Source: Acidobacteriota bacterium (lineage in GTDB: Bacteria; Acidobacteriota; Terriglobia; UBA7540). Taken from it: 42,584 nt of DNA. The DNA lies in assembly GCA_902812415.1 (NCBI GenBank), contig CADDZJ010000024.1, positions 1 through 42,584 of the forward strand. The letters run 5' to 3'. The notes below the pieces were generated by a model. That model was not told where the DNA came from, ran no database searches, and saw only the letters and a program-made list of their open reading frames with translations. Both the position numbers and the translations under genes were made by a program. Shown here in pieces: positions 2,235 through 35,983 of the stretch. Each line of letters starts with the position of its first letter. The stretch's first letter is position 1.

Positions 2235-2612
2235 CGGCGATTTTATATTGGTAAAACCCCTCTTCCCTGTAGGGAAAAGGCTTGGGATGGAGGTTGTTAT
2301 AGCGGCTTGGCTTAAGCCTAATAAGGTTGCCGAACGCAGGCGTCTGGCCGCCCCATGTTGTTTCCTGCTATTAATTTTTCCAATAAAGCCGCTACTCGTC
2401 CCTAAATATTTATTGCAATCATTCCCGTTGAATAGCGAGCGCAACTGGCGTATGCTTCTGCCATTCGGCTTCCGGCGACTACCGAAAATCAATTTGCGGT
2501 TCTCGGCCAGAGCCAGCGAAAACTTGAGGTCGACCAGGTAGAGAATTTCGCTCTTTTTTGAAGCCGACAGCCTTTGAAGCTAAATCTAAGGCTCAAGGAG
2601 GGAATTTTAGCC
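2235..2612. other. Intergenic region with one hairpin, no gene seen
   Basis: This 378-base stretch between the LysR gene and the next gene holds no frame that looks coding. It contains a hairpin at 2260-2279 and a strong ribosome binding site (AAGGAGG, 2595-2601) for the downstream gene. I could not identify a convincing promoter by eye. Confidence 0.5.
2260..2279 (+). terminator. Hairpin downstream of the LysR gene, terminator-like without a T-run
   Basis: CCTCTTCCC and GGGAAAAGG pair at 8 of 9 positions around a four-base loop (TGTA), about 26 bases after the LysR stop codon. No run of T follows, so intrinsic termination is uncertain. Confidence 0.3.
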
Positions 2613-9054: not shown

Positions 9055-10113
9055 TCATAGACGGTCGATATCGGTGCGCGAGGAAGCGAGATGCAACGAA
9101 CAGACGCATCTCTGGCAGATTGGGTTTGCAGAGATATCTAAATGTCGGCGAAAATTGATGGCGCGCTCGCTGTTGAGAACGTCTTTGAGTGATCCGCTAT
9201 AGATGTTCCCGATCGATTGATGAAAGAAACACGGAAGCAGGCTGCCATCCGCATCGATCACCGCTGAGACCCAGGGTGCGTTGCAGGGCGGCGAAGCCGG
9301 TGGACACTGCCCGAGTTGAGCGCGAAAATGAAGCACGATTCTCCGCAATTTGCAGGGGCTTTCCACGATAAATCCGTCCTCGATATCCTTCTGGTTATCA
9401 CGAATCAGGGCTTCCATCTCATCAGCAAGCTGTTCCACTTCACGGCAGTTGAGCGCCACTTTGGAACGGCGCTCTTCCGGCCAACCTTGGGTGCGATTGA
9501 AGGCCGCGGAGAATAAGTCGGCGGCAAGAAAGGAAATCGAGTTCAAAGCCATTAAATGGCCGGCCCGTACCGTATCTCGAAGGCGGCAGAAATTCTCTTT
9601 CTGAACCGTGCAGCGTCCGCGCACCGGAATTTCAGCGCGCCATCTACGCAAGGCTCCAATTCCTCTGACCAACCTCTGGAAAGCTCCTGGCACAGCGCGG
9701 ATCCGATTATGAATTTCTATTGGACCATCTAGTGACACAATCACATCATCAAAGTTCTTCGCAATCATCTCCGCGCGCCTCTCCAAGAGTAGGCCGGCCG
9801 TAAGCAGCGTGACACGAATCCCTTCATTTCGGAAAAGAGATGACAGCTCCGACAAATGGGGATGCAACAACGGCTCGCCGCCGGAAAATATCACCCACTT
9901 TACGCCGAGTTCGCGCACCGAGTTCAGATGAGGCGTAAGGTCTTCTGCTGTCAACTCTCGCACCTGCCTGATTTTCCATATGTCGCACATCATGCAGCGG
10001 CAATTGCACCGGTTGTGAGGCATGATGACCAATACGGGTAGGGACATGACGCGGTCTCTGCCGTCCAATAACCTGGCGGCGATCATGTTTTGGGCGTCGG
10101 CGTGAGCGCTCAT
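9055..10113 (-). CDS. Radical SAM protein with SPASM-like C-terminus
   Basis: This is the last gene of the long minus-strand operon (352 residues). The radical SAM cluster motif CX3CX2C is at C36, C40 and C43, followed by the SAM-binding GGEP (78-81) in a TIM-barrel core. The C-terminal region carries further cysteines (CNAPWVSAVIDADGSLLPCF, and later ICQRCVC), as in SPASM/twitch proteins that hold auxiliary iron-sulfur clusters. Such enzymes start radical chemistry by cleaving SAM; SPASM members often modify peptides, but others act on small molecules. The start ATG overlaps the stop of the amidohydrolase gene (ATGA), so the two are translationally coupled. It differs from the other five radical SAM proteins here in having no N-terminal B12-binding-like domain. 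The substrate is unknown. Confidence 0.9.
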   Translation of the reverse strand: MSAHADAQNMIAARLLDGRDRVMSLPVLVIMPHNRCNCRCMMCDIWKIRQVRELTAEDLTPHLNSVRELGVKWVIFSGGEPLLHPHLSELSSLFRNEGIRVTLLTAGLLLERRAEMIAKNFDDVIVSLDGPIEIHNRIRAVPGAFQRLVRGIGALRRWRAEIPVRGRCTVQKENFCRLRDTVRAGHLMALNSISFLAADLFSAAFNRTQGWPEERRSKVALNCREVEQLADEMEALIRDNQKDIEDGFIVESPCKLRRIVLHFRAQLGQCPPASPPCNAPWVSAVIDADGSLLPCFFHQSIGNIYSGSLKDVLNSERAINFRRHLDISANPICQRCVCSLHLASSRTDIDRL

Positions 10114-11402
10114 ACTCTGACTCTTTTACCCGCAAGGTGGATTTCTTTTCCGAGATGTTTTTGAGCGACGTTGAAAAGGTTTCTGACAGGCGCCGCAATC
10201 AGGCGGTCGACACCATCGATCTCTAATCGCTCAAGGTTCGCCGAAACTTCGTTGGACCAACGGCGAGCCAGCGACGGCGATAGAAGCTTGATTTCTCCTC
10301 CCACCATGACCAGCTCAAGCCTCTCCAGATTTAGGGCACTCAGAGAGTCGCACGGGCGACCACCGTCATCGGCGATGGCAATGAGGTCGGCCACAGCGCC
10401 TTCCGTGAGAGTTCCCTCTCCCCGCATGAGTCTCAACACATCGGCTGCCCGGTTTGTCACCATCGCGTAAGCCTCCTCTGCGGTTGCCCGGAGGTGGCCG
10501 CGCGCAAATCGGATTTCGTCCAGCAGATCACCCGCGGCGGTGAGCGCTGAATCCGAAGCGAGGGCTATCCGGCGATGCTGCCGGACAGAATCCAAGTCAA
10601 GCGTCCTGCCCAGAAGGAATTGATTCGACGTTGGACACCAAACCAGAGCCGAACCACGGCGCTCAAGAAGCTCGTGACCTGCGCGATCCATTCCCACTCC
10701 GTGGACGATGACCGTCTTTGGATCGAGCGCTCCCACTTGGTCGAGCCAAAAAATCTCCGCGCGGCTTTGCTCATCCGCACCCTCAGCCGCATGGATGATG
10801 AACGGTGTATCCACGAGCGTCGAGCGGAATGTTTCCGCCACGTTCTTTCCCAAAGCCAGGGAATGAGCCCATGTGTATCGGGTCACGACCCGAACAGGTA
10901 AGCGCGCCCGGAAGCTACAGGGAATCTGAGGGTTGTGATGGCAGACTGTTGTGACTCCACACAAAAGGTTTCTGACCGCACCCCACCACAGCCTGACTGA
11001 TTTCGGGATCGACAACTGCTCTTTCACCGGCGAGCGGTTAGGATAGTAAATGTCCGCAGCCCATTCCAGAAAATTCTGATAAGGGCCGTGGCCAAGACGC
11101 GGAAACAAACCGAATTCCAGATGATCGTGAGCGTTGACGAGGCCTGGAAGGATTATGTAATCCCTCAGGTCAACGGTCTGAACGGGGATCGGGGAGCCCA
11201 TTTGCGCTGCGCCACGCCTGTGGCTATTGGCGGGTGGAGCGTGATGAAGTCGCCCGTTTATAACCGCAAGATCGGTGGTGATGGCGGTGGCCGCGCCCGT
11301 TGCGACGCGCGCCCCGGTAAGCCGCCACATCGGCGGCGTGACAGAACGTTGCATCGCGGGCGAGCGAGCTTCCAGGAGCGTCTGACTCATAGGCTCACCC
11401 AT
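10110..11402 (-). CDS. Amidohydrolase (ATZ/TRZ-type metal-dependent deaminase/hydrolase)
   Basis: The 430-residue protein has the composite beta-sandwich plus TIM-barrel layout of the amidohydrolase superfamily. Expected metal ligands are visible: HxH at H92 and H94 (GLVNAHDHLEF), H204 (FIIHAAEG), H234 (VIVHGVGMD) and D284 (ALASDSALTAAG). The pattern with the SDS-type motif and no bridging lysine resembles single-metal ATZ/TRZ enzymes, which deaminate or dechlorinate heterocycles. The substrate cannot be read from the sequence. The start could be 11402 or the in-frame ATG at 11390, which follows GGGTGA. It lies 6 bases after a methyltransferase gene and overlaps the next radical SAM gene by ATGA, so it is part of the same pathway operon. 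A hydrolase in a radical SAM pathway suggests processing of a purine- or pterin-like, or an amide-containing, intermediate. Confidence 0.87.
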   Translation of the reverse strand: MGEPMSQTLLEARSPAMQRSVTPPMWRLTGARVATGAATAITTDLAVINGRLHHAPPANSHRRGAAQMGSPIPVQTVDLRDYIILPGLVNAHDHLEFGLFPRLGHGPYQNFLEWAADIYYPNRSPVKEQLSIPKSVRLWWGAVRNLLCGVTTVCHHNPQIPCSFRARLPVRVVTRYTWAHSLALGKNVAETFRSTLVDTPFIIHAAEGADEQSRAEIFWLDQVGALDPKTVIVHGVGMDRAGHELLERRGSALVWCPTSNQFLLGRTLDLDSVRQHRRIALASDSALTAAGDLLDEIRFARGHLRATAEEAYAMVTNRAADVLRLMRGEGTLTEGAVADLIAIADDGGRPCDSLSALNLERLELVMVGGEIKLLSPSLARRWSNEVSANLERLEIDGVDRLIAAPVRNLFNVAQKHLGKEIHLAGKRVRV

Positions 11403-11408
11403 TCTTTC

Positions 11409-12131
11409 TCATCGCATCCGGAATGGGCGAAACTGGAGGATGAAAATAGCGGGCTCATTGCAATTCCCTTCATAAAGGCGAATCTTGCCAGCGGCCTCGA
11501 AAATGCGTCGCTCCCGTTCTCCCCAATGGGGTTCAGCCTGGCCGACAAGACGTAAACCTGAAGCTTCGCCGAGGTAAACTATCTCCGCGATGGAATGCCT
11601 CGTGTTCTCGATCTCCAAAACCTGATTTTCATGCCGAAACGCGCGCTTCCAGCCCCGGCTGTGACAGGAAGGGTGGACGTCGCTCAGGAAGATCTCCGCC
11701 CGGGGGCTCAAAATCCGCGACAGTTCTCTCATCAAACTCTTCAGGTCCTCCAGATATCCTGCGACAAAGGAACACAGCGCCAGGTCTATCGTCCCCGAAA
11801 GGATCGGAATCTGCCGGCAGTCTGCCTGCAAAAGCCGACCGTGCAATGAATCATTCCTTAGAGCGCAACCCAGCATTTGCGGTGAGAGGTCCAGTCCGAA
11901 AACTGATGCGGCTCCACGGGCAATCAGCCTATTCATCCAGCGTCCAGTTCCACACGCGACGTCCAGCCCGCGACGATTGACAACGGTCGGGAGTCTCGCT
12001 TCCATCACTCGCTCTTCGAGAACGAGCAGCGGATTGGGGCAGCGGTCATAGCTTGCCGCCCAGAGAGCATACCCCTCGCGCACCGACACGCGCCTGGGTT
12101 CGATCGTGCGGGATCGTTGGGCAAGATTCAC
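11409..12131 (-). CDS. Class I SAM-dependent methyltransferase
   Basis: The 240-residue protein has a Rossmann-like methyltransferase fold. Motif I is LDVACGTGRW (about 56-65), followed by the acidic end of strand 2 (VFGLDLSPQML) and motif IV (IDLALCSFVAGYL). The N-terminal VREGYALWAASYD is characteristic of small-molecule methyltransferases of the UbiE/COQ5-like or BioC-like group. It probably transfers a methyl group to a soluble or lipid-like acceptor. It overlaps the preceding B12-type radical SAM gene by ATGA (12128-12131) and precedes the amidohydrolase gene. It is one of three methyltransferases in this operon; the three are not close copies of one another, which suggests different steps. 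The acceptor is unknown. Confidence 0.9.
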   Translation of the reverse strand: MNLAQRSRTIEPRRVSVREGYALWAASYDRCPNPLLVLEERVMEARLPTVVNRRGLDVACGTGRWMNRLIARGAASVFGLDLSPQMLGCALRNDSLHGRLLQADCRQIPILSGTIDLALCSFVAGYLEDLKSLMRELSRILSPRAEIFLSDVHPSCHSRGWKRAFRHENQVLEIENTRHSIAEIVYLGEASGLRLVGQAEPHWGERERRIFEAAGKIRLYEGNCNEPAIFILQFRPFRMR

Positions 12132-13591
12132 AGACTTTCCACCTTGGGTTTTCGCAGTTCAACAAACCGCTGAGCCCACTCAAGCTCCAAGGGCCAGCGA
12201 TAGATTCGGAGCGCGTAACGCCAGGAACTCAGCAGCTTCAGCAGGCGGCGTCCCCAGGAAGGAAGACGGATATCCTGGACGGTCGGCCAGCGTGAGGCAA
12301 CGACCAGTTCGAAATCATCAATCAACTTCTTCACGGAAGGCCTAAGCCAGGGCGTGGCTGGCTCTCTACGAATCGTGAAATTCAGCCAGTGGTCTGTAGC
12401 CCACTCTTCCACTGTGTCAGGAAACTGCACTCTTCCCTCAATGTCGCCATACATGCGGTCGCGCTGGGGGACAGGAATATAATGCTGGATGATGATCTCC
12501 GCCTGAGAGTTGATCTTTTTGATCTTCCGAATAAACCGCAGACATTCACGGGTATCTCGCTCAGGATTTCGGGGATTGCCAACTACGAAGGAGAACTCAG
12601 GAACAATGTTGAAGTCTCGTATGCGACGGGCAAGTTGCAAGGTTTGTTCCGTCGAAAGCTGCTTGTTCATCTCTTTTAGAACCCAGTCGGACCCTGATTC
12701 GGCGCCGAAAAAGATCATCGCGCAGCCGGAGCGGCGCAGGGCTTCCAGCGTCGCATCCGAATACCTCAAGAGAATGTCGATTCGGGCTTCACACCACCAG
12801 CGGAGCCCCAAGGGCATGATCCTCTCGGCCAGTTCTCGGGCGTGGTCCTCACGAAGGAAGAAATTGTTGTCGTAGAACTGAATGGCATTGACGCCGTAGC
12901 GCTGCACCAGATGGCGCAAGATAGTCTCAGTGCGCGCGGGCGATTCCATTTTTTCCTGGCTCCCCAAAGCGGAGATCACCCCGCAGAAATTACATCGGAA
13001 AGGACAACCCACGCTGGCTTGATGGACCGCAGTGTATTTCCCAAGAAAAGTGGGAAGGATATATTTCTTTGCCGGCAGTCGATGAAAAGGGGGCCAGGGA
13101 AAACCATCAGGGTTCTTCAGAGGGCGATGATTGTTATGCTGATGCCTTCCATCCTTCTCTTTGAACGAGAGCCCCAGGATCGAATTCAACGGGCGCTCGC
13201 CGCGCAGAGCGCCGATCAGCTCAACAAACGTTTCTTCGCCCTGTCCTCGTACAGCGAAATCGACATAGGGAGCATTCAACGCTGCGTCCGTGTAAATGGA
13301 GGGGAAATAGCCGCCCCAGACAATAGGGACATACGGATAATTCGCCCGAACCACACGGCATGTTTCCATGGCGGCGACCATTTGCGGACCAGGCATCACG
13401 GAAACTGCCAACAATTCTGTGGCATGGGCTTCAATCAATCGCTGGATGGTGCCGACCGGATTTGCGTCCACATTCCCATCCACAATGTAGTATTCTTCGC
13501 GGTCTTCGATCATCGCCGCCAGCGCGAGCACCGCGAGCGGAAATCGCCTGCTGCGTGGTTTCGTGGATTTAGGGTGGTAGAGAATGATCAT
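12128..13591 (-). CDS. B12-binding-type radical SAM protein (BchE-like architecture)
   Basis: The start at 13591 is preferred; a longer frame to 13687 would run far into the upstream gene. The 487-residue product has an N-terminal Rossmann-like B12-binding-type domain (about 1-140, with GGYFPSIYTDAAL and VDFAVRGQGEETFVEL). The radical SAM core follows, with CX3CX2C at C196, C200 and C203 (SVGCPFRCNFC). A C-terminal region of about 130 residues is rich in Trp and Arg. The canonical cobalamin lower-ligand motif DxHxxG is not seen. The start lies one base after the upstream methyltransferase stop, and the end overlaps the next methyltransferase gene by ATGA. By family, such enzymes catalyse methyl transfer to unactivated carbon, cyclisation or other radical rearrangements. 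It resembles the pair at 18433 and 19926 more than the pair at 15422 and 16876. Confidence 0.9.
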   Translation of the reverse strand: MIILYHPKSTKPRSRRFPLAVLALAAMIEDREEYYIVDGNVDANPVGTIQRLIEAHATELLAVSVMPGPQMVAAMETCRVVRANYPYVPIVWGGYFPSIYTDAALNAPYVDFAVRGQGEETFVELIGALRGERPLNSILGLSFKEKDGRHQHNNHRPLKNPDGFPWPPFHRLPAKKYILPTFLGKYTAVHQASVGCPFRCNFCGVISALGSQEKMESPARTETILRHLVQRYGVNAIQFYDNNFFLREDHARELAERIMPLGLRWWCEARIDILLRYSDATLEALRRSGCAMIFFGAESGSDWVLKEMNKQLSTEQTLQLARRIRDFNIVPEFSFVVGNPRNPERDTRECLRFIRKIKKINSQAEIIIQHYIPVPQRDRMYGDIEGRVQFPDTVEEWATDHWLNFTIRREPATPWLRPSVKKLIDDFELVVASRWPTVQDIRLPSWGRRLLKLLSSWRYALRIYRWPLELEWAQRFVELRKPKVESL

Positions 13592-13592
13592 G

Positions 13593-14603
13593 TTATTGCA
13601 ACATGCCCCAGACGATATAAAACTTCGCCGGTTTGCGCCGGCGCGCAAGCCGCGCCTGAAGCGGGCGCAGGGCCCAGCGCAGACCATACCAGGGCTTACC
13701 CAGCCGCCACTGGACGCCGTAGGCGCAGGTCAACTGTTCCAGGTTTTGCCGGGTGAGAAATTCACAGCTTGCGACACTGTCTGAAGCAAAGCCATATTTT
13801 TCAACGTATGCCTTGCGACGCTCCGCCATCATCGCGCGGCCACTTTCTTCCCTGTTGTAGAATGGCGAATCAACAATCAGAATATGCCCAGCTCTTCGCA
13901 GGCAACGCAGCGCTTCACCCAAAGTGGTTCGATAGTCTTCGGAGTAATGAAACGAAGCGTTAAAGATCACTAGATCGAACTGCGCTCCAGCGAATGGAAG
14001 CCGATCCATTTCGGCCCGAAACCGAGGGAAGGGCTGCGAAAGAAAGCGCAGGTAGTGGCGGGCAGCGCCTAATCCGTCGAGTTCATCGGTTCGCAGATCG
14101 ATGGCCACGGGCCGATAGCCGCGCAAAGCCAAGCGGTAGCTCAGCCAGCAATTTCCCGCCCCTACGTCGAGAACGTCCAATCCACCCTTATGCTCTCTTT
14201 CTATTTGAGGAAGAATCTTTCGTTGCAGGTAGCGAAAGCTCCGCGCGCGAAGTTTCCACTGCCAGGAGTTTCTCCCGGTGGCGTCTTTGAATGGCAAGGC
14301 GAGGTAGTAACGCCCTCCCGATGAGCCTCGACCTTCGCTCTGACGGATCGTTTGATACTCGGTGACGAATTGGCGGTAGCGCTCGTCGCGGCACGGAGCA
14401 AGCGCCTTCCAGATGCCCCGCTCATTTTTCAATATGAAACCGCACGCGGGGCACTGGGGCTCTAGCCTCATCGGGAGTAAAACAAGTGTGCCCATCGGAT
14501 GTGTGCATACAGGACATCGCAGGAGAAGCGAGCGCGACTGAGCCGGGAGGGCAATTGCAGCTTCCGACGCGGCCTGGGTCGAAGTTTGAAGAAGAGCGCT
14601 CAT
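13593..14603 (-). CDS. SAM-dependent methyltransferase with N-terminal zinc ribbon
   Basis: The 336-residue protein begins with a Trm112-like zinc ribbon (C30, C33, C51 and C54: CPVC and CPACGF), then a class I methyltransferase fold. Motif I is VLDVGAGNCWLSY (about 144-156), and there is an acidic strand 2 (PVAIDLRTDEL) and a motif IV region (FDLVIFNASFHY). The HILIVDSPFYN segment is post-motif as in many small-molecule methyltransferases. Zinc-ribbon methyltransferases occur in RNA-modifying, quinone and natural-product enzymes; the genomic setting favours the last. The gene lies between another methyltransferase (2-base gap upstream) and a B12-type radical SAM gene (1-base gap downstream), so all three are probably translated together. 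The acceptor is unknown. Confidence 0.87.
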   Translation of the reverse strand: MSALLQTSTQAASEAAIALPAQSRSLLLRCPVCTHPMGTLVLLPMRLEPQCPACGFILKNERGIWKALAPCRDERYRQFVTEYQTIRQSEGRGSSGGRYYLALPFKDATGRNSWQWKLRARSFRYLQRKILPQIEREHKGGLDVLDVGAGNCWLSYRLALRGYRPVAIDLRTDELDGLGAARHYLRFLSQPFPRFRAEMDRLPFAGAQFDLVIFNASFHYSEDYRTTLGEALRCLRRAGHILIVDSPFYNREESGRAMMAERRKAYVEKYGFASDSVASCEFLTRQNLEQLTCAYGVQWRLGKPWYGLRWALRPLQARLARRRKPAKFYIVWGMLQ

Positions 14604-14605
14604 GA

Positions 14606-15415
14606 TTATGATCTTGCAAATATGAGTAATACGTGATCCGCGAGACTGCGGAAAACGGGAAAATTGGAAATGTTACGGTCAACTTTCGCGGCTGCACGGA
14701 AGATTGCAGGAAATCGAGTGGTCAAAGATTCAAGATAGGAGGGCGGCACCACGATTCCCAGCCCGATCTGGCGCTTGAGGCAAAAATAACGCGAAAAAGC
14801 ACGCTGAAGTTGACCGATCGACCAGTAATTGACGTTGAGCCTCCGGCCGCCGATAATGTAGCTCTGCGTGGCGTTTCTGAGCCGCCGGAAAGCCTTTCGC
14901 GAATCCCCGCACCCGATATTCCAAAGCATCTCCCAGGCGCAATGTTTTCCAAAGATACAGAACAAGGCATAGGCTCCGGGCTTCAGAAGATGAGCCAGGT
15001 TTTGAGCGGCAGATTCCAGATTCAGCACGCAGTTCAGACCGGCGAAGTTCGACAGCAGGCCATCAAACGGAGGCATTTGGGTGAATCTGTGGATTTCCTC
15101 CGTCGGCATGGTGTGGAATTCAATGCGCTCCCCGAGTCCCATGCTCGCGGCTCGTTGGCGCGCAACGCGGATCATGGCCGAAGAAGCGTCGCACGCGAAA
15201 ACCTGCACGCCTCTCTGCGCCAGGTGCGCGGCATCGACGCCTGTCCCGCAGTTGATTTCCAGAATACGTTGGCCCGGTCGGAACACCTGATCCATTTCTT
15301 TCCAGACAAGATTTCTCTGTGATCTACCCACGAAGGATTCCGTAAAGGTTTTATCATACGATTCAGCAATCGAATCGAACGGCGTCGCCGCTTGGAATGC
15401 CGAAGAGCCATTCAT
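14606..15415 (-). CDS. Class I SAM-dependent methyltransferase
   Basis: This 269-residue protein has an N-terminal FDSIAESYDKTFTESFVGRS segment and SAM-binding motif I ILEINCGTGVDAAHLA (about 51-66). Strand 2 ends in FACDASSAMI, and the later region with LLKPGAYALFCIFGK is motif VI-like. The C-terminal 90 residues are basic and aromatic (RRLNVNYWSIGQLQRAFSRY) and may bind the acceptor. Small-molecule methyltransferases with this N-terminal segment often act in lipid or quinone pathways, but the specificity here is unknown. The gene lies 6 bases after a B12-type radical SAM gene (15422) and 2 bases before the zinc-ribbon methyltransferase gene, within the same operon. Confidence 0.9.
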   Translation of the reverse strand: MNGSSAFQAATPFDSIAESYDKTFTESFVGRSQRNLVWKEMDQVFRPGQRILEINCGTGVDAAHLAQRGVQVFACDASSAMIRVARQRAASMGLGERIEFHTMPTEEIHRFTQMPPFDGLLSNFAGLNCVLNLESAAQNLAHLLKPGAYALFCIFGKHCAWEMLWNIGCGDSRKAFRRLRNATQSYIIGGRRLNVNYWSIGQLQRAFSRYFCLKRQIGLGIVVPPSYLESLTTRFPAIFRAAAKVDRNISNFPVFRSLADHVLLIFARS

Positions 15416-15421
15416 TTCGAT

Positions 15422-16813
15422 TCACGCCTCAACTTCTGAATAAGAGAGGCGCAGCCCCTCGCGAGCCTGAACAATCATTGATTCAATCTCCTGACGAGAA
15501 CCGTGTGAGTCGCCCCGGAACAGCAGTCGTTGCAATTCCACTTCCGAGCGGAGGAGTTGATCGGCATACTGATAAAAACGGCGGGAGTGCCGGCCGCGAA
15601 TTTGAATATCGCGGTCCGAGCTCTCCCGCCATGACGTAGGAGGAAGAAGCCGATCGGTTACCTGCTCAAAGTAAGGAGTTCCTTTAATCGGGTAAGCCAC
15701 CGTGGTCAGAAAAATATCTGGATCAGCGCGTTTGACATGGTTGACCGTCGCTTCGATGTCCTCGAGACCCTCGCCTTCATATCCCCACATCAGGAACATG
15801 CCGGTCTGAATCCCGCGCGATTTGCAGAGCTGGATAGCCCCCTGCACCTGTTCGACGGTCACGCCACGCTCCATGGAATCGAGGACGCTTTGTGAGCCGC
15901 TTTCCGAGCCAATCCAGATTCGGAAGCATCCGAGTTCCGCAAGTGCGTCCGCCGCTTGCGGGTTGATCCGATCGGCTCGGGAAATACATTCAAAAGGCAC
16001 TTTTAGATTGCGGCGCTTCATTTCGCAGGCGTATTGAAAGAGCCAACCATGATGGATCGTAAAAACATCATCTGCGATCCAGATCATGTCCGGCGAATAA
16101 CGGCTCATGATCCATTCGATCTCATCCACCACCGCAGCCGGCTTGCGGCGCCGGTGCGTGTTCCCATAGACGGAATGACTGCACCAGCGGCAGCGATAGG
16201 GACATCCCCTTGCCGTAATGACCGAGACGGAACCCACGCCGTGATGCGCTCGCCACGTGTCGATATATTTCTGGATGGAGATCGATTCGCGGCCGGGCCA
16301 CGGCTGCCCATCGAGATCGGAGATCAAAGCTCGGGGCCGCGTTCTTTCCACTTTCCCTTCTCCCCCGAGGAAGGCAATTCCGTCCACGCCAGCCAAAGAT
16401 GCAAACCCGCCTTCCTTCAGGGCGGGCAGGAGCTCTTCCAAAGTCTTCTCCGCTTCCCCGATGACAACAACGTCGGCGCCCGCATCGAGATACTCTTCCA
16501 CATAGTTTGCGGGCTCCGGGCCGCCAACAATTGTTTTCCAGCCAGCTTTCTTGGCTGCTTGAAGAATTGCAACGGCATTGCGCCTCGTCATCAGGTTGGC
16601 GTACACGCCCAGCACAGAAGGGGAATGGTTGCGAAGAACTTTGAAAAGGTCTTCACGCGAGGAAAAAGTGGAGTCAAAGACCTCTACGTCAAAGCCTTTC
16701 GCGCGCAGATGCGAGGTCAAATAGAGAATTCCCAACGGCGCGTAGGGCTTCATGATCTGCAACTCTTTTGTGTCCTCATAGAGGAAATAGCCGTGAGTTA
16801 GGAGGAGATCCAT
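15422..16813 (-). CDS. B12-binding-type radical SAM protein (BchE-like architecture)
   Basis: The ATG at 16813 is chosen because the protein then begins MDLLLTHGYFLYEDTKELQI, aligning with the paralogue at 16876; a TTG at 16834 is possible. The product has 463 residues. The N-terminal B12-binding-type domain (about 1-140) contains KPYAPLGILYLTSHLRAKGF and AGADVVVIGEAEKTLEEL. The radical SAM motif is C204, C208 and C211 (ARGCPYRCRWC), followed by a TIM-barrel with WIADDVFTIHHGW and the typical GSESGSQSVLDSMERGV. No DxHxxG cobalamin ligand motif is seen. The upstream gap of 62 bases contains an inverted repeat (16837-16842 and 16854-16859). The close paralogue upstream suggests a gene duplication with divergence of substrate. 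The substrate is unknown. Confidence 0.9.
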   Translation of the reverse strand: MDLLLTHGYFLYEDTKELQIMKPYAPLGILYLTSHLRAKGFDVEVFDSTFSSREDLFKVLRNHSPSVLGVYANLMTRRNAVAILQAAKKAGWKTIVGGPEPANYVEEYLDAGADVVVIGEAEKTLEELLPALKEGGFASLAGVDGIAFLGGEGKVERTRPRALISDLDGQPWPGRESISIQKYIDTWRAHHGVGSVSVITARGCPYRCRWCSHSVYGNTHRRRKPAAVVDEIEWIMSRYSPDMIWIADDVFTIHHGWLFQYACEMKRRNLKVPFECISRADRINPQAADALAELGCFRIWIGSESGSQSVLDSMERGVTVEQVQGAIQLCKSRGIQTGMFLMWGYEGEGLEDIEATVNHVKRADPDIFLTTVAYPIKGTPYFEQVTDRLLPPTSWRESSDRDIQIRGRHSRRFYQYADQLLRSEVELQRLLFRGDSHGSRQEIESMIVQAREGLRLSYSEVEA

Positions 16814-16875
16814 AAACTTGCCATTAATTCTCAATCATCCGATTTGAAAAACGTCGGATTGGTTCTTTCCTGCGA

Positions 16876-18375
16876 TCATGCCGAGCACGTCGTCGAACAC
16901 TCCAAGATGGGAAGTAAAGTTGGGTGAGTAGTTCGACAAGTCTTTTCCATGGCTTCAACCTTTGCCCAGAGGTCATCCGGATGACTAACCTCCCGGGCAG
17001 TCCGAGTGCCCTCGGAAAGGATCACGGGGAAGGGCCAGGCGCGGCGAAGGCTCCATTCCGCGACCTCCGCGTGAAGCGCATCGTGGAGAGCGCGGTAAAA
17101 CTCGGTGGTATAAGCGCCCTGGAACATCATGGAAATATCCTCGCTGTCGATCCAGTTTGTTTTAGGCCCAAGTTGCGCGCGGACCCGTTCGTAGAAGCGC
17201 GTTCCTGGCAACGGATAGGAGACGGAGATGCCGATATCATCAGGCTGGGTCTTTCGAATCAGGCGAATCGTTTGCTGAATGTCTTCCCAGGATTCTCCCG
17301 CATACCCAAATTGAATGAAGAAACAGGCGCGTATACCGGCGCTTCGGAGGTTCTCGCGGCTTTGAGCGACTTGGTCCACTCGAATACCCTTTTCCATAGC
17401 ATTCAGGATTTTTTGCGACCCTGATTCAACGCCCATCCACACTTCCGCGCAACCGGCCTGGCGCAGCGCGCGGGTCGTCTCCTTCTTCATGAGGTCGACG
17501 CGCGATTGAATTTTGAACGGAACGGAAGCGTCGAGACGCCGGGTCATTTCAGCTAGTTCAGCGACCCACTGAGTTTTCAAGCCGAAAATGTCATCCGCAA
17601 ACCAAAGATGGTCCGGGCGATAGAGGTTTTTCAGAAGGGCTATCTCCTCGGCCACGCTTTGGGCGGAACGCAGGTGAAACGCATCCCCGTAGATTGGCTT
17701 GGCGCACCAATTGCATCGGAAGGGACACCCCCGGCTCGTCGTGAGATTCAGAGAGAAGAAACCATGTGCGGACTTCCAGGCGCGACGATATTGTTCGATA
17801 TCGACCAGATCGCGCGCCGGCAAAGGAAGCGAATCGATGTCCCGCATTAAGGGGCGACGCGGGTTTTGTACAAGCGTCCCCGAAACTTTGTGGTAAAAAG
17901 CGAGGCCGGCAATCTCCTCCACCGGTCCCTGGCGCCTGCCAAGCAGCGACCCGACTAGCTCGATGAGCGTCCACTCCGCTTCACCCAGCATCACGAAGTC
18001 CGCGCCCCGTCTTAGGTATTCAGAGACATGATCAGACGCGTCCGAGCCATTGACCACGATCACACAGCCGAACTGCCGGGCCGCGCTGATCATTCCAAAC
18101 GCTACTTCTCGCATCCGGCTCAGGCACATTTTTGAGAGGAAGTTGAAATTATCTTCGTAAATAGCTACAACTTTGGGGCAGTGCCGGCGAAGGACTTCAT
18201 GGAAATTCCGCTCCGGGTCTTCGAGTGTGGAATCAAACACGGCAACCGAATAGCCCTGCTGTCGAAGCAGTGCAGCCGCATAAAGCGTGCCCAAAGGAGG
18301 GTAGGGCTGCATCTTACGAGCCTGCTTCCGGTCGTAATATAAATGGTAGGAATGTGTCAGAAGAATATCTGCCAA
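16876..18375 (-). CDS. B12-binding-type radical SAM protein (BchE-like architecture)
   Basis: The frame is open to 18411, but the TTG at 18375 is preferred: GGTGAGG lies 5 bases upstream, and the product then begins in register with its paralogue at 15422 (MADILLTHSYHLYY against MDLLLTHGYFLYED). It has 499 residues. The N-terminal domain (about 1-145) carries QPYPPLGTLYAAALLRQQGY, and the radical SAM motif is at C217, C221 and C224 (SRGCPFRCNWC). The core has LWFADDIFGLKTQW and GVESGSQKILNAMEKGI. A C-terminal extension of about 90 residues ends with Cys-Ser-Thr-Thr-Cys. No DxHxxG motif is visible. It lies downstream of the 18433 gene with a gap of about 57 bases. By family it may be a cobalamin-dependent methylase or cyclase; the substrate is unknown. 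Confidence 0.88.
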   Translation of the reverse strand: MADILLTHSYHLYYDRKQARKMQPYPPLGTLYAAALLRQQGYSVAVFDSTLEDPERNFHEVLRRHCPKVVAIYEDNFNFLSKMCLSRMREVAFGMISAARQFGCVIVVNGSDASDHVSEYLRRGADFVMLGEAEWTLIELVGSLLGRRQGPVEEIAGLAFYHKVSGTLVQNPRRPLMRDIDSLPLPARDLVDIEQYRRAWKSAHGFFSLNLTTSRGCPFRCNWCAKPIYGDAFHLRSAQSVAEEIALLKNLYRPDHLWFADDIFGLKTQWVAELAEMTRRLDASVPFKIQSRVDLMKKETTRALRQAGCAEVWMGVESGSQKILNAMEKGIRVDQVAQSRENLRSAGIRACFFIQFGYAGESWEDIQQTIRLIRKTQPDDIGISVSYPLPGTRFYERVRAQLGPKTNWIDSEDISMMFQGAYTTEFYRALHDALHAEVAEWSLRRAWPFPVILSEGTRTAREVSHPDDLWAKVEAMEKTCRTTHPTLLPILECSTTCSA

Positions 18376-18432
18376 CCGGACCTCACCGTTCTCTTTGCGC
18401 TTGGCCACCAACTGCGCGTCGCATAATGATTT

Positions 18433-19929
18433 TCAGCACACTTGCTGCATACCGCGTTGCAAGACCTGTCCCGTCAAGAGAGATCGCCGAGCGACCGCTT
18501 GTTCAAATCCACGGGCGAGCCAAAGCTCCCAGGGAAATGTGTACTGATCGGCCTGCAGGCGCCAGCGCAGCGGTGTCGCCAGCGCCTGGCGAATTCCTCG
18601 GCCCAGCCAGGCGCTCTTCGACGCTTGGCGCTGGGTCTCGGTACAGAGCATGAAGTAGTCGAGCATCCTCCTGAGTTTTTGAAACGGCTTGCCGGCTAGC
18701 CAGGGCAGTGGATTGTTCCCCAGGGTCATGTCGCCCCATTCCTCAAGACTTTGCGGTTCGCGCACACCTTTCCTTCGCAGTTCCGGCCAGATGGAGATTC
18801 CGGGATAAGGCGTGAAGAGATTCGGGGAAAAACTCACATGAGGATATCTGCGAGAGATATCGGTCATGACCCGCATGGTTTGCAATCGGTCGGAATCCAT
18901 TTCGCCTGGAAAGCCCAGGATCAGATTAAACGTCACGCGAATTCCCGTTCCCCGGGTCTTCCGCGCCGTTTCAAACATTTCGTCAATGCACTGGTGCTTT
19001 TTATTCATCAGCATCAGCACCTGTGGCGAAGCCGACTCCGTGCCAAACCCCATATGGCTGACTCCCGATTCAGCCAGGAGACAGACCTCGTCATCGCTCA
19101 TGCGGCAGAGGAGATTGGTGGAGGCTTGAAAAGTCCAGCGGAACTTAAGCCCCGAGTCCACGAACCCTCGCGCAATCGCCACGGCTCGCTTCACATCCAC
19201 AAGAAAATTGGAATCCAGAAAGGCCACTTCCCGGAGGCGCCAGCGCGAGGCGAGAGTCGTCACTTCGTTAATGACCCGCTCGGCTTTGCAGGCATTGAAT
19301 CGCTGGCCGTAGTAAACGAGATCGGTGCAGTAATTGCACGCATAGGGACAACCGACGCTCGATGCATAAGTGACCTTGCGAAGTCCGGATTTTCGCTCGT
19401 ATGCATCAAAATCTCCCATGAAGAAAGCAGGCGTCGGCAGATGGTTGACGTTCTCAACCGGACGATCAGGGTTGTGAATTACCTCTTCAGGTGTCTTCAG
19501 GGAGCTTCCTCGGACTCCCTCCGCGCCTTTCCCTTCGCGCAGCCGTTGCGCGACCTCCAGCATTGTCAACTCGCCCTGTCCTCGCACCACGATGTCAGCA
19601 ATACCCGCTGCAAGCGTCTGGGCAGGCAGGATTGTTGCGTGCCAGCCGCCGAAAATGATCGGAATATCGGGTCTCAGAATTCGGACGAGACTGGAAACCC
19701 GGATAGCGTCCTTGATCATCGGGCCGGTTAGAAATGAAACTCCAAAACAAAGCGCATCCTTGACTTCGTTCGCCACGGTCACTTCAGGGTCATCCGTGAT
19801 CGCTGAATCGATGATCCTCACGTGAAAGCCAGCCTGGACGAGCGGAGAGGCTACTGACAACAGGCATAACGGCGGCCCAAGAGGAGGCCCGTCATAAGGG
19901 GGGTAGTAAAGCACCACCTTGTTTTTCAT
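18433..19929 (-). CDS. B12-binding-type radical SAM protein (BchE-like architecture)
   Basis: The 498-residue protein has an N-terminal B12-binding-type domain (about 1-135) containing VVLYYPPYDGPPLGPPLCLL, GGWHATILPAQTLA and DIVVRGQGELTMLEV. The radical SAM core has CX3CX2C at C194, C198 and C201 (SVGCPYACNYC), plus AFLDSNFLVDVKRAVAIARG and GFGTESASPQVLMLMNKK. Its C-terminal portion (about 390-498) has LPWLAGKPFQKLRRMLDYF and FPWELWLARGFEQA. It is clearly paralogous to the 19926 protein along its whole length, including the C-terminal region, and less so to the 12128 protein. It overlaps the upstream gene by ATGA (19926-19929), and GGAGG lies 11 bases before its ATG. No DxHxxG motif is seen. 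The reaction is unknown. Confidence 0.9.
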   Translation of the reverse strand: MKNKVVLYYPPYDGPPLGPPLCLLSVASPLVQAGFHVRIIDSAITDDPEVTVANEVKDALCFGVSFLTGPMIKDAIRVSSLVRILRPDIPIIFGGWHATILPAQTLAAGIADIVVRGQGELTMLEVAQRLREGKGAEGVRGSSLKTPEEVIHNPDRPVENVNHLPTPAFFMGDFDAYERKSGLRKVTYASSVGCPYACNYCTDLVYYGQRFNACKAERVINEVTTLASRWRLREVAFLDSNFLVDVKRAVAIARGFVDSGLKFRWTFQASTNLLCRMSDDEVCLLAESGVSHMGFGTESASPQVLMLMNKKHQCIDEMFETARKTRGTGIRVTFNLILGFPGEMDSDRLQTMRVMTDISRRYPHVSFSPNLFTPYPGISIWPELRRKGVREPQSLEEWGDMTLGNNPLPWLAGKPFQKLRRMLDYFMLCTETQRQASKSAWLGRGIRQALATPLRWRLQADQYTFPWELWLARGFEQAVARRSLLTGQVLQRGMQQVC

Positions 19930-21449
19930 GGGCAGTTCGCCTCCACCGCTGGTTTCAGGGTCTTGGCATCTACGGCAGGCTTCGCTACCGGAATCAGCTT
20001 CTTAAGCTTTCGGTTCAACCACAGCTCTACGGGCAAATCATAGAAGTCGTGATCCAAACGCCACCGGGCAGGGCGGCTCAATGCCTTCTGGAGCTTCCGA
20101 ATTAATTTATTGGACTCGTATTTTGAAATCGGCTGGCGGTCAAAGGCAATACGCAGGTAGTCCCGCATCGTCTGCAAGCGGGCGTGGTCGCGTCCTTTAA
20201 GCCATGGGAGCACGGTATAGCGCGGGAAGTAGTCTGACCAGCCTTCAAGCGACTGCGGCGTTTCAATTCCAAGCTCTTTCGCTCGACTCATAATGGGAGA
20301 GCCTGGATAGGGGGTGAAAATGTTGGTCCAGAATTCCGCGCCGGGGAATCGCCGGCAGACGTCCATGATGAATTGAATCGTCTGCTGGCGTTCTTTAACT
20401 CCTTCACCGGGATAGCCGAAGATGATATTGAACGACGGCCTGATTCCGGCTTTCAGACATCGTTCGGCGGATTGGTAGATCGAGTCAAAGTCCTGAAACG
20501 TCTTGTTCATGAGTTTCAGGATTTTGGGGGAAGCAGAGTCAACACCCTGGCAGACCTGGCGCAGCCCTGCGCGTCGCAATAAGAGCAGATTTTGCTCCGT
20601 CAACCGCGCCGTCAGATTGGTCGTGGCCTGAATGCTCCATTGGAAATGCGCGCCGGCGCGAATGAGTCCCTCTCCAATCTGAAGTGCGCGATCGAGATCA
20701 ACGAGAAAGTTATCATCCACAATCCATAACATTTCGAGATGGTAGCGGGTCGTCAGGTCGACAGTTTCTTCCACCACCTGTTCAGCAGGGAGCGCATTCC
20801 ATTTGCGCCCGTACACGCCGGCATTCGTGCAATAAGAACAGTTGAAGGGACAGGCCAGGCTCGAGGTGTACATCGCCCACCGCCGGCCGCACAGACGCTC
20901 GTAAGCGTCAAAGTCAGCCAGATGATAGGCTTTGGGCGGAAGGTCAGCGATAGGCTTCAGCGGTCTTTCCGAATTGAAGATCAATTTTCCGTCATGTTTA
21001 TAGGCGATGCCTTGAATTCCCTCCAGCGTGCCGCCCTCCTCAAATCTCCGGGCTATCTCCGTGATGGCATCTTCACCCTGTCCGCGCACCACAACGTCTA
21101 CACCGTAAGCGCCAAGCGTTTGCTCAGGCAGCAGCGACGGATGCCAGCCGCCGAGAACAACCGGAAAATCGCGATTCCACGCTTTAACGGCGCGCGCAAG
21201 CTCCACGGTTTCGCGGATCATCGGACCGGTGACCAGCGAGATTCCCAGAAAAAGGGCGTCCTGGACTTCCTTCAGCACACGTTTTTTGAAATCCGGCGTG
21301 ACGGTGGAATCCACGAGCGTCACAGCATACCCAGATCTGAGAAGCGGCGTTGAAATCGCCAGCAGGCTCAGCGGGGCGGTCGCTTCCTGACTCGAAAATG
21401 CCGGAAAGAAAAGGACGACTTTTCTGGAAGCTTTCAAGCGTCTCACCAT
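19926..21449 (-). CDS. B12-binding-type radical SAM protein (BchE-like architecture)
   Basis: This 507-residue protein is the first radical SAM enzyme of the operon. The N-terminal domain (about 1-145) has VVLFFPAFSSQEATAPLSLL, GGWHPSLLPEQTLG and DVVVRGQGEDAITEI. The cluster motif is at C200, C204 and C207 (ACPFNCSYC), then IVDDNFLVDLDRALQIGEGL and GVDSASPKILKLMNK. The C-terminal region (LPWLKGRDHARLQTMRDYL; DLPVELWLNRKLKKLI) matches that of the 18433 paralogue, so this segment may hold the lipid or substrate-binding part. The start ATG at 21449 has only a weak ribosome binding site (AGTGAAAG) and overlaps the end of a 37-codon frame, which suggests translational coupling. No DxHxxG is seen. 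The substrate is unknown. Confidence 0.9.
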   Translation of the reverse strand: MVRRLKASRKVVLFFPAFSSQEATAPLSLLAISTPLLRSGYAVTLVDSTVTPDFKKRVLKEVQDALFLGISLVTGPMIRETVELARAVKAWNRDFPVVLGGWHPSLLPEQTLGAYGVDVVVRGQGEDAITEIARRFEEGGTLEGIQGIAYKHDGKLIFNSERPLKPIADLPPKAYHLADFDAYERLCGRRWAMYTSSLACPFNCSYCTNAGVYGRKWNALPAEQVVEETVDLTTRYHLEMLWIVDDNFLVDLDRALQIGEGLIRAGAHFQWSIQATTNLTARLTEQNLLLLRRAGLRQVCQGVDSASPKILKLMNKTFQDFDSIYQSAERCLKAGIRPSFNIIFGYPGEGVKERQQTIQFIMDVCRRFPGAEFWTNIFTPYPGSPIMSRAKELGIETPQSLEGWSDYFPRYTVLPWLKGRDHARLQTMRDYLRIAFDRQPISKYESNKLIRKLQKALSRPARWRLDHDFYDLPVELWLNRKLKKLIPVAKPAVDAKTLKPAVEANCP

Positions 21450-21556
21450 CTTTCACTGCAAGCCATCGGTCTTCGCAAGACTTGAACGATCAAATTACCT
21501 GCAACAGCATTGGTGAGTGTCACAGGCAGGTTTGGAGGCTGCAAAAATTTTGTCAT
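21443..21556 (-). CDS. Possible 37-residue peptide coupled to the first radical SAM gene
   Basis: An ATG at 21556 overlaps the stop of the O-antigen ligase-like gene (ATGA, 21556-21553). It opens a 37-codon frame whose TGA (21445-21443) overlaps the first bases of the radical SAM gene that starts at 21449. The peptide starts MTKFLQPPNLPVTLTNAV, continues through a hydrophobic stretch (GNLIVQVL) and ends with a basic Arg-Arg-Pro segment, one Cys (residue 33) and a C-terminal Trp. Overlap at both ends is what translationally coupled genes show. It may be a leader that carries ribosomes into the radical SAM gene, or a precursor peptide for the radical SAM enzymes, or chance. There is no clear ribosome binding site of its own and no known precursor motif. 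Confidence 0.35.
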   Translation of the reverse strand: MTKFLQPPNLPVTLTNAVAGNLIVQVLRRPMACSERW

Positions 21557-22902
21557 CGCACTGCGTTTCTGGAGCTGAACATTTGCGCGATCCGGGCCAA
21601 GGTGAGTTTCAACTGCCATGAACTGCCCGAGTCATTGATTCCGCAAGCTGAATGAGTCGGGGAGACAAGCGGAGAGAGAACCGCGAAGCTTAAGAGGATC
21701 AACGCGAGCGAATGGCCGTACGTGTAATCAAAGACGCCCGCAATCAGAAACCCGGTGAGCGCCAGAAGCGAGGTCAGACAACAAAAGAGCTCTTCCTGTT
21801 GATGCGCTGCCTGGAAAGCCAGGAACAGATCACGGTACAGCGCAAGGACCAAAAGAATTGCTGCCAGTGCAACCGGCAGACCGAAGGTCGAGGCCAACTG
21901 CGCCAGGTTATTGTGAAGGTGCCCGCGATAGCGAGGGATCGGCTCGTGGGGTTTGAGATACTGCAAGTAAAGTTCGTTGATTCGCCCGGCGCCCACGCCG
22001 ATCCAAGGATGCTTCTCGATCATCCTCCAGCTGACACGCAGCATCTCGATGCGCTCCTGGTTTGGGTAGTAATCCGGATCCATCGATCCCCGAATCCGAG
22101 AGCGGACGGGACCGGGCGTCGCCGCGTAGAGCAGCACCGGAAGAGCTGCGACGGCCCACAGCCATTTCGAGCGCCGCCGCGCGAGTTCAATTCCGGCGAG
22201 GAGCCAGCATACAAACCAGAGGGTGCGCGTCAAACTGACCGCAATCGCTATCAGGTTCAGAATCCAGATGAGCCGCCAGCGCTTCTGCTCCCCGGGATAG
22301 AAAGCTCGAAAGCTAAGCAGTCCTGCAAACACGATGACTTCTACGATTGCATAAACCATCCAATTTCCGAGAAATCCGCCCGTTCTCAGGTAAAAACGCG
22401 CAGGGCCACCCGCCTCAACGTTCGCGTGGAACATGACAATGTGCCTGAGAAAAATTACGATCAGGAAGATCGAACCGAGTCCTGAACTCAGAAAAACGGC
22501 TTTCCACGCTCGCAGGCGCGAGCCGGCGACTCCGAGGCTGGAAAGCAAAAATCCGAGACTTACCAGCAGCAGAAGATGCCGCATCTCACTCATGCCCGCC
22601 TTTCGATCCGGGGAGAGCAACCATGAGCCGACTTGAAGGGCGGCGAGCAGCAGCCAGAGCCAGAAAGAAAGAGGCAAACGCGCCGGGCGGCGAGACTTCG
22701 AGCGATCGAGAACCCGCGCCAGCAATGACACGGCCAGGAGCGATTCCGAAATCGCAATCGATAAAGGGACGGCGCCAATTGCCAGCGTGAGCGCCACACG
22801 ATCCAGCGGCTCTCGCAGAAAACCTGCCGAAGGAGGTTTGATGAGGCCGCTGGTTACTTCTTGTTGAAGCGCCGCTTCTAACTGCGCTGAAAGTCCGCTC
22901 AC
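21553..22902 (-). CDS. O-antigen ligase/polymerase-like membrane protein (Wzy_C type)
   Basis: The 449-residue protein starts with GTG at 22902, with AGGCGG about 5 bases upstream. It has about ten hydrophobic segments and the periplasmic loop region typical of O-antigen ligase or polymerase proteins (EKHPWIGVGAGRINELYLQY, then HLHNNLAQLASTFGLPVAL). The family joins polysaccharide or lipid-linked repeat units in the periplasm. It follows the DUF5777-like gene after 8 bases, and its stop overlaps a small frame that leads into the radical SAM genes. A second protein of the same family is encoded at 30551 in the divergent operon, so one may polymerise repeats and the other may attach the chain or the product of the radical SAM pathway. 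Specificity cannot be predicted. Confidence 0.85.
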   Translation of the reverse strand: MSGLSAQLEAALQQEVTSGLIKPPSAGFLREPLDRVALTLAIGAVPLSIAISESLLAVSLLARVLDRSKSRRPARLPLSFWLWLLLAALQVGSWLLSPDRKAGMSEMRHLLLLVSLGFLLSSLGVAGSRLRAWKAVFLSSGLGSIFLIVIFLRHIVMFHANVEAGGPARFYLRTGGFLGNWMVYAIVEVIVFAGLLSFRAFYPGEQKRWRLIWILNLIAIAVSLTRTLWFVCWLLAGIELARRRSKWLWAVAALPVLLYAATPGPVRSRIRGSMDPDYYPNQERIEMLRVSWRMIEKHPWIGVGAGRINELYLQYLKPHEPIPRYRGHLHNNLAQLASTFGLPVALAAILLVLALYRDLFLAFQAAHQQEELFCCLTSLLALTGFLIAGVFDYTYGHSLALILLSFAVLSPLVSPTHSACGINDSGSSWQLKLTLARIAQMFSSRNAVR

Positions 22903-24446: not shown

Positions 24447-26480
24447 ATGACGTTCGTTCGAGAGCTACGAATGGGTTCGGGAGACTTCTTCAAGACACAG
24501 ATGCGGACGCCCCGGGAGGAGACTTTTCTGATCGCCAGTTTGACCTGTCATCTCAAAACGAATAGCGAGGCGATCCTGAAACACGCCCGAAAACACTTCA
24601 TTGCGCTTTCTTCAGACTTGGCTGCTTCGGACGTGACGTTTCGTTTCTGGGTGGATGACGCGGCTGCCTCGCAGCCTGCCTCGGAGAAGCCGCGCTTTAG
24701 AGGAGTTGAAGGCATCGTCTTTGCATCGTTCAACAGGCAGAACTTTCTTCTGATGAATCTGGCGAAGCGCTGTGTCATCGGGCGATTCACGCAAGACTTT
24801 GTGGAAGATGAGGCGGGTCTAGGCAGAACGGTATTCCCCATTGCTATTGCAACCCTGGGGCCTGCGAACGGAATCAGCGTGATTCACAGCGCCTGCGTCG
24901 TTGACAAACAGCAGGGTTTGCTGCTCGCTGGCGCCTCGGGATCAGGAAAGTCAACGCTCTCGCTGGCGCTCTGCCAATTAGGGTACGAGTGTCTCTCAGA
25001 CGATCGGACATATATTTCATCGCGCCACGGCAGGCTTCTGTGTTGGGGCGCCGGCGGTCGGCTGAAGCTGCGGCCTGAAGCTACAAAGCACTTTCCCCAC
25101 ATTCCGATGACGAGAGTTGCTGGCAATTCCGGCCCTGAGATTTTCGAGGTAGACCTTGCGCAGGATGGTTCCACGCGCCGTCATTGCTCTGAACCGAGTT
25201 GGATTGTATTCCTTGAACCCAAAGAGGGCGCGGGGCTGGAATTAACCGCGCTTTCTCCTTCCGATGCTGCCCTCCGGCTGGAAGACGGTGTGCTGCAAGA
25301 ATCAGAGCCGGCAGTCAAATGTCAGTTGGACGTGATTCAAAACCTGGTGAAACGCCCCTGCTATCTTTGTCGCTACAGTGGCCCGCCACAAGTCGTCGCT
25401 CGCGCGCTGGCTGATGCGTTCTTTTCAACAGTCGGAAAATCCCCGATCGCGCTTCCTGAAACTGTGAAAGCAAGCGGGCCTTCCACAACCACATATCGAG
25501 ACCCCTTGCGACGCTTCACTCCTCTCGTTCACCAAACTCCGATCCGGGTCCTGGGCCGGGACGGGATGCTTGAGACCAACTCCTTCCGGGTCAGGGAACT
25601 GGCGTGCAGGTTCCTTAAAAGCGGACTCCCTGACGCTACTTCCAGACTCTTCTTCACCTGGAGGATTGTGGCCGAAGAGGATCATCGCCCGAGGTCTCCT
25701 TGGCCTCAACCCAGGGGGCTTGCGGCGGAGGGCATGCAGTGCGTGAATTTGGGCCAAGCAGGTTTCGTCGCGGCTGATCTCGGTGCGTGTGAAATCGTCG
25801 GTTTTACGTCAGAGAGCCGCGTCGCGGATGCGCCCGGCTTCGCTGGTGTTTTTCTGGCCGCCATGGCTCACCTCACGGCAGCCGCATTGCGCCTGACGCC
25901 AATTTCATCAGCATGCATCTCCAGGCAAAACCGAGGTTTGCTTTTGCTGGGGCCTCCCGCTTGCGGGAAGACCACGTGCGCCTACGCTGCGCAAAACTTT
26001 GGCTTTGAAATCCACTCCGATATGGCGACTTTCCTGGAAGTGCGCGGCGGACGGCTGCATGCCTGGGGAGAATTCTGGCCAGCGCTCTTCCGCCAGGAAA
26101 CTGCACGCTTTCACCCGGAACTTCTGCGATTGGGCCAGCCTCTGGAGCATGAGAACGAGATTTTTATTTCCGTGGAAAAAAGCTGCCTGATGGCTCAGGA
26201 TGAAAGCAACGTCATACCGATCCTGGCGCTGGTTCTTGAACGAGGTAAGACAAAGATACCGCGCCTGACCCAACTACCCAAAGCCAAGTATCTAGAGATC
26301 TTAAAAGCAAGCTGCCCCTATGCCGAGGAGCCGCAGAACTTATCGCATCGAAGCGCCGTCCTAGCGGAGCTTCTATCGATTCCCGCTTATAAGCTCGCCT
26401 TTGGAGAAGACCCAGCGGAGGCGGCCATATTCTGCCGGAGCCTTTTTACCACCCACCGCAGACTGGAGGGCTTGCGATGA
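24447..26480 (+). CDS. Tandem HprK-like kinase (two HPr-kinase-type domains)
   Basis: The 677-residue protein contains two copies of an HPr-kinase-like module. The first has IHSACVVDKQQGLLLAG leading into Walker A GASGSGKST (162-170) and SDD (184-186). The second has ISSACISRQNRGLLLLG, Walker A GPPACGKTT (502-510) and SDM (524-526). HPr kinases use the conserved Asp pair for catalysis, so the second copy, which lacks the second Asp and has an altered P-loop, may be regulatory or inactive. HprK-related proteins next to nucleotidyltransferases occur in some polysaccharide and peptide-modification loci, where the phosphorylated partner is unknown. No PTS HPr is encoded in the window. It is the first gene of the plus-strand operon and overlaps the next gene by ATGA. 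A start at 24471 with GAGAG upstream is also possible. Confidence 0.8.
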   Translation: MTFVRELRMGSGDFFKTQMRTPREETFLIASLTCHLKTNSEAILKHARKHFIALSSDLAASDVTFRFWVDDAAASQPASEKPRFRGVEGIVFASFNRQNFLLMNLAKRCVIGRFTQDFVEDEAGLGRTVFPIAIATLGPANGISVIHSACVVDKQQGLLLAGASGSGKSTLSLALCQLGYECLSDDRTYISSRHGRLLCWGAGGRLKLRPEATKHFPHIPMTRVAGNSGPEIFEVDLAQDGSTRRHCSEPSWIVFLEPKEGAGLELTALSPSDAALRLEDGVLQESEPAVKCQLDVIQNLVKRPCYLCRYSGPPQVVARALADAFFSTVGKSPIALPETVKASGPSTTTYRDPLRRFTPLVHQTPIRVLGRDGMLETNSFRVRELACRFLKSGLPDATSRLFFTWRIVAEEDHRPRSPWPQPRGLAAEGMQCVNLGQAGFVAADLGACEIVGFTSESRVADAPGFAGVFLAAMAHLTAAALRLTPISSACISRQNRGLLLLGPPACGKTTCAYAAQNFGFEIHSDMATFLEVRGGRLHAWGEFWPALFRQETARFHPELLRLGQPLEHENEIFISVEKSCLMAQDESNVIPILALVLERGKTKIPRLTQLPKAKYLEILKASCPYAEEPQNLSHRSAVLAELLSIPAYKLAFGEDPAEAAIFCRSLFTTHRRLEGLR

Positions 26481-35888: not shown

Positions 35889-35983
35889 ATTTTATTAGTT
35901 TCTGTGTTTGAACGAAAAGAATGGTGTACGCTTTAGAGGGTTGTAGTCTGCCGTTGGACAGATTGCCTTGGGCCGGGGAGGGT

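Follow-up and report, generated by a model that had tools for sequence, protein, structure and literature searches.

What does an operon make when it joins six radical SAM proteins to three methyltransferases and an amidohydrolase? The question is raised by ten consecutive genes of an Acidobacteriota bacterium, found on a stretch of 42,584 nt (hereafter the window) that is the whole contig C24 of a 4.84-Mb draft genome. To our knowledge, few operons bring together so many B12-radical SAM enzymes.

Operon layout and enzyme families

The ten ORFs run on the minus strand from nt 21449 to nt 9055 in the order A1-A2-A3-A4-M1-M2-A5-M3-AH-SP (Table 1), with intergenic gaps, from A1 to SP, of -4, 21, 41, 6, 2, 1, -4, 6 and -4 bases. 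Pfam assigns A1-A5 to the B12-binding-type radical SAM proteins, SP to the SPASM radical SAM proteins, M1-M3 to the class I methyltransferases and AH, of deaminase type, to the amidohydrolases. Coordinates, gaps and domain content thus confirm the single-strand run of these enzyme types given in the preliminary description of this DNA. A longer ORF for A5, starting from the ATG at nt 13687, would overlap M2, and the start at nt 13591 is the better fit. Six of the 37 PF04055 matches in the 4.84-Mb genome fall within the 12.4 kb of the operon.

Table 1. Genes of the operon and its recurrent neighbours in the window; the last column gives the number of Terriglobia-type loci, out of 36, with an orthologue.
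Gene	Position (nt)	Strand	Description	Profile match	Loci
A1	19926..21449	-	B12-binding-type radical SAM, first operon gene	PF02310 + PF04055	32/36
A2	18433..19929	-	B12-binding-type radical SAM, paralogue of A1, most dispensable gene	PF02310 + PF04055	21/36
A3	16876..18411	-	B12-binding-type radical SAM, also in short form and Ignavibacteria	PF02310 + PF04055	34/36
A4	15422..16834	-	B12-binding-type radical SAM, paralogue of A3	PF02310 + PF04055	34/36
M1	14606..15415	-	class I SAM methyltransferase	PF13649/PF08241	34/36
M2	13593..14603	-	class I SAM methyltransferase, N-terminal CPxC...CPxC ribbon-like segment	PF08241	31/36
A5	12128..13591	-	B12-binding-type radical SAM	PF02310 + PF04055	36/36
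M3	11409..12131	-	class I SAM methyltransferase, fused to AH in Acidobacteriaceae	Pfam	36/36
AH	10110..11402	-	deaminase-type (COG0402-like) amidohydrolase, in every variant	PF01979	36/36
SP	9055..10113	-	radical SAM/SPASM, last gene	PF04055 + PF13186	33/36
Wzy	21553..22902	-	Wzy-type O-antigen ligase/polymerase, directly upstream (gap of about 100 bases), probable associate	PF04932	
HprK-like	24447..26480	+	HprK-related kinase-like protein, recurrent neighbour	TIGR04352, 56.9 bits (below cut-off of 200)	
NTP	26477..27817	+	nucleotidyltransferase, recurrent neighbour, first gene of short form; sole copy in window genome	PF14907	

The CxxxCxxC motif is kept in 40/41 homologues read for A1, 32/32 for A2, 60/60 for A3, 53/53 for A4, 76/76 for A5 and 63/63 for SP. 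C-methylation is the commonest activity of B12-radical SAM enzymes, and deoxygenation and ring formation are also known. The B12-binding Pfam domain of A1-A5 does not prove use of B12 or methylation, and the individual radical reactions of A1-A5 and SP cannot be told from sequence. An Rfam scan of the window gave no match, hence no cobalamin riboswitch at the Rfam threshold, and promoter and terminator scans did no better than shuffles.

Conservation of the gene order, the M3-AH fusion and the short form

Of 299 genomes belonging to the same class, 47 have AH-like genes, and in the first twenty loci read the gene set and its order are nearly always those of the window. Scanning 84,980 species genomes led to 80 loci, and order was counted over the 36 Terriglobia-type loci with enough flank. 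All ten genes are present in 16 of them (strictly in order in 15), and the order of whichever genes are present is kept in 35. A5, M3 and AH form the most widely kept triad. Cultured hosts include Edaphobacter aggregans DSM 19364, E. lichenicola and Terriglobus albidus DSM 26559.

Partial sets, with A5-M3-AH accompanied by M1, A3 or SP, were retrieved from other acidobacterial classes, Ignavibacteria and Planctomycetota. Three loci of other acidobacterial classes carry SP-A3-A2-A4-M1-A5-M3-AH (L145, 34-55% identity), A3-A4-M1-A5 (L144, in a complete genome) and A3-A2-A4-M2-A5 (L139). Homologues of A5 and M3 adjoin AH in Ignavibacteria (L127, L130 and L135), in Planctomycetota (L128) and in uncultured lineages, and SP, M1 or A3 is often there too; in Chloroflexi (L129) AH adjoins M3, in Gemmatimonadota (L136) and Myxococcota (L124) it is accompanied by other set members, and in a Cyanaurora locus (L133) it stands alone. 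Plasmid records held no AH relative. In the Ignavibacteria loci L127 and L135, AH/SP are followed by genes that resemble nucleoside salvage by eye, without a profile check, those of L127 being a putative cytidine deaminase, thymidine kinase, nucleoside transporter and purine nucleoside phosphorylase.

The genes are therefore not scattered in relatives, and large parts of the set recur in other classes and phyla. Nor could any of them be assigned to a characterised family: none of the ten proteins reaches a curated NCBIfam cut-off, and no description of the cluster was found in the open-access literature. That the ten genes are one dedicated pathway and not a chance pile-up, as first proposed from the window, is well supported, and the pathway would be an ancient one because many soil Acidobacteriota and, in part, other phyla share the gene order. 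Acidobacteriota are one of the most abundant soil phyla, and their cultured hosts are strains in which the product can be sought.

In many Acidobacteriaceae M3 and AH are a single ORF of about 630-700 aa. In an AH tree built from 82 sequences, the rows from other classes and other phyla form one group (100/95), and 24 fused M3-AH rows form one clade, inside which the rows of a short form are nested as a clade of their own (100/99). This short form has the order NTP-M1-RibA-A3-M2-AH-GT in seven loci (L055, L085, L093, L096, L102, L104 and L113); as exceptions, L092 lacks RibA and L100 consists of A3-M2-AH-SP. Since its clade is nested in the fused one, the short form derives from the fused long form by loss of A1, A2, A4, A5, M3 and, except in L100, SP. 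Because only AH, A3, M1 and M2 remain in it, the pathway is modular, and different forms need not yield one product. With the conserved set, the reduced versions found in other phyla and this naturally short variant, an orphan cluster becomes a pathway open to testing.

The seven short-form loci look like a separate natural-product pathway. Between M1 and A3 they carry an intact GTP cyclohydrolase II, above the NCBIfam cut-off and with 68-71% identity among loci, which is an extra (third) copy in most host genomes; a UGT/EryCIII-like glycosyltransferase follows AH, a PhyH gene is close by in some of the loci, and an MsbA/HepA-like ABC exporter is found nearby in L093. These genes would suit a natural product that is secreted freely and built on a pyrimidine-, pteridine- or flavin-like core derived from GTP, AH being a heterocycle deaminase and the polysaccharide genes mere neighbours. 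As an account of the operon we consider this unlikely. The short form is a single derived clade within the fused long form, which makes the cyclohydrolase a late, single gain; none of the long-form loci has GTP cyclohydrolase II inside the operon, and the one copy in the window genome is RibBA-sized. A GTP-derived heterocycle as substrate is suggested by the derived short form only.

The amidohydrolase, the neighbouring genes and a proposed pathway

The predicted structure of AH (pLDDT 92.7) gave as best fold matches adenosine, MTA and SAH deaminases (Z 33-34 over about 350 residues), followed by 8-oxoguanine deaminase, isocytosine deaminase and AtzA. Alignment, motif counts and fold match agree on an amidohydrolase fold with HxH, HxxE, H and D residues; HDHL is found in 81/83 and HxxE in 82/83 homologues, and the metal ligands are intact. 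These observations support AH as a predicted C-N hydrolase or deaminase acting on an amino-bearing, probably heterocyclic, substrate, and from its family it may fairly be supposed to remove the amino group.

MTA/SAH deaminases (4f0s, 4gbd and 1p1m) are the closest solved sequences and folds, and AH alone among the genes is retained in all variants, whatever its partners. Both points would fit a housekeeping role in which AH clears SAH, MTA or 5'-deoxyadenosine, by-products of six radical SAM proteins and three methyltransferases, the M3-AH fusion relieving SAH inhibition. The barrel itself argues against this explanation, which we hold to be improbable. By profile positions, the distance from HxH to HxxE in AH is about 44 residues less than in 4gbd, the AH model has only seven barrel strands (DSSP), and the full-length segment between these motifs, which holds the ribose/homocysteine pocket of MTA/SAH deaminases, was not found in AH; its substrate pocket must therefore differ from theirs. 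Moreover, the position which we take to be the ribose-binding Glu84 of TM0936 is not conserved, and AH is far from the NCBIfam cut-offs for 5'-deoxyadenosine, aminofutalosine and guanine deaminases. The length and strand number of AH do not support the name MTA/SAH deaminase.

Among the neighbouring genes, a Wzy orthologue lies upstream of A1 also in L042, L044 and L062. Homologues of the HprK-like kinase stand beside the operon in many loci and accompany the PF14907 gene. The latter is present in 47/47 genomes with AH vs 146/252 without it (Fisher 1.2e-10, uncorrected for kinship), an association partly confounded by family membership, as many genomes of family f10 without AH have PF14907; it is rare in control genomes (2/14). 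Copies number 1-3 per genome and mostly lie close to the operon: at 5 kb in the window, at about 8-10 kb in four other genomes (G020, G035, G049 and G055), adjacent in G656 and inside the operon in G214. In L097 the HprK-like kinase and then PF14907 follow SP in the same operon, and in L117 PF14907 comes directly after SP. The exceptions, with PF14907 not near the operon, are two Terriglobus genomes (G135 and G155) and fragmented assemblies. A response regulator/histidine kinase pair like that at nt 35921-38527 of the window is found beside the operon in L042, L044, L072, L076, L103 and L115, and is a possible regulator of the pathway. Distant versions of the operon lie beside GT87, GT9, GT4 and sulfotransferase genes.

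Adjacency to polysaccharide genes thus recurs in several lineages, and the best reading of the neighbours is that the operon serves the cell surface. The link to surface polysaccharide suggested in the preliminary description stands insofar as PF14907, the HprK-like kinase, Wzy, glycosyltransferases and the two-component pair recur nearby; attachment of the product to the polysaccharide is still something we infer, and some long-form loci have no polysaccharide gene within the stretch read.

Other features of the surroundings were also recorded. The kinase-like protein at nt 24447-26480 has two P-loop segments (residues ~155-177 and ~498-538), which give it the look of two kinase domains in one chain, and its homologues in relatives are single-domain proteins of about 340-380 aa. 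The minus strand at nt 33282-35664 encodes two secreted proteins that match no Pfam family, one a 312-aa ORF and the other beta-barrel-like; their orthologues come right after SP in L060, L061, L062 and L064. Just downstream of SP, a short ORF (nt 8322-8990) matching only the end of DUF7948 and one SBBP repeat is probably a truncated remnant, and nt 2574-5774 hold a 1066-aa ORF without any Pfam match.

A peptide had been named among the possible substrates, and SPASM and B12-radical SAM proteins often mature peptides and HprK-related kinases occur in peptide systems. That these enzymes modify a small genetically encoded peptide (RiPP maturation) is nonetheless highly improbable: the largest gap, of 41 bases, leaves no room inside the operon, no PqqD-like or peptidase gene was seen, and when 75 loci and their surroundings were searched for conserved small ORFs, all that emerged were shadows, antisense or out of frame, of other conserved genes, which disfavours a peptide.

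We favour, with somewhat less than even confidence, a dedicated pathway in which a small deaminated precursor is turned into a product activated and displayed or exported with surface polysaccharide. Taking the operon structure, enzyme families, conserved order, M3-AH fusion and recurrent neighbours described above, we infer the substrate class, each reaction and the reaction order as follows. The starting compound would be a small amino-group-bearing precursor of central metabolism, most likely nucleoside-, pyrimidine- or amino-sugar-like, whose C-N bond AH would hydrolyse (deamination). M1-M3 may methylate N or O, and A1-A5 would act on unactivated carbons through radical reactions (C-methylation, deoxygenation or ring formation), to which SP may add another radical step, an oxidation or a decarboxylation. 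In Acidobacteriota, the HprK-like kinase and the PF14907 nucleotidyltransferase encoded nearby would probably activate the product, which would be displayed or exported along with a surface polysaccharide made by the neighbouring Wzx/Wzy/GT genes. A bolder version, which we regard as rather doubtful, is that the five B12-radical SAM enzymes, the SPASM enzyme and the methyltransferase-deaminase fusion build a chemically unprecedented, multiply C-modified block of surface polysaccharide, activated by the HprK-like kinase and PF14907, in a pathway as old as the phylum.

Comparison with known systems

A1-A5 share their domain pair with HpnJ, BchE, the TIGR04072 lipid (ladderane) family and AprD4. 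The top NCBIfam profile hits of A1-A5 reach 98-148 bits, with HpnJ, BchE and TIGR04072 among the best, and all scores against the four families stay under one third of the curated cut-offs, so that none of the hopanoid, BchE, ladderane or AprD4 equivalogs is reached. Unlike in the HpnJ, BchE and AprD4 systems, no hopanoid, chlorophyll or aminoglycoside genes were seen beside A1-A5. A3 and A5 are similar to AprD4, one of the few solved members; an AprD4-like function was not adopted for them, as HpnJ and BchE score higher for both.

The presence of HpnJ and the ladderane family among the best hits, along with HpnH in all Terriglobia tested, could point to a modification of hopanoids or membrane lipids, such as deamination and methylation of adenosylhopane or methylation of a lipid tail. 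This is very unlikely, since the scores fall well short of what these families require (HpnJ at most 141 vs a cut-off of 577.6) and HpnH above cut-off is missing from the Ignavibacteria with the A5-M3-AH triad and from AH-locus hosts of Gemmatimonadetes, Myxococcota and others. Hopanoids as a general substrate are excluded by its absence from several AH-bearing lineages.

For SP, the nearest solved relative is BlsE, the cytosylglucuronate decarboxylase of blasticidin S (E 3.7e-17); the match amounts to 73.6 bits against a cut-off of 400, with the alignment limited to the radical SAM half, and the similarity was not taken as function.

Toxoflavin-type pathways begin at GTP cyclohydrolase II. 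The short form likewise couples this enzyme with methyltransferases and a deaminase-type enzyme; it differs in that a radical SAM enzyme and an amidohydrolase replace the toxoflavin enzymes, and the arrangement is absent from the long form.

With the MTA/SAH deaminases TM0936, 4f0s and 4gbd, finally, AH shares the fold and the HxH/HxxE/H/D metal and catalytic motifs; at 17-23% identity it differs from them in being shorter and, in many species, fused to a methyltransferase.
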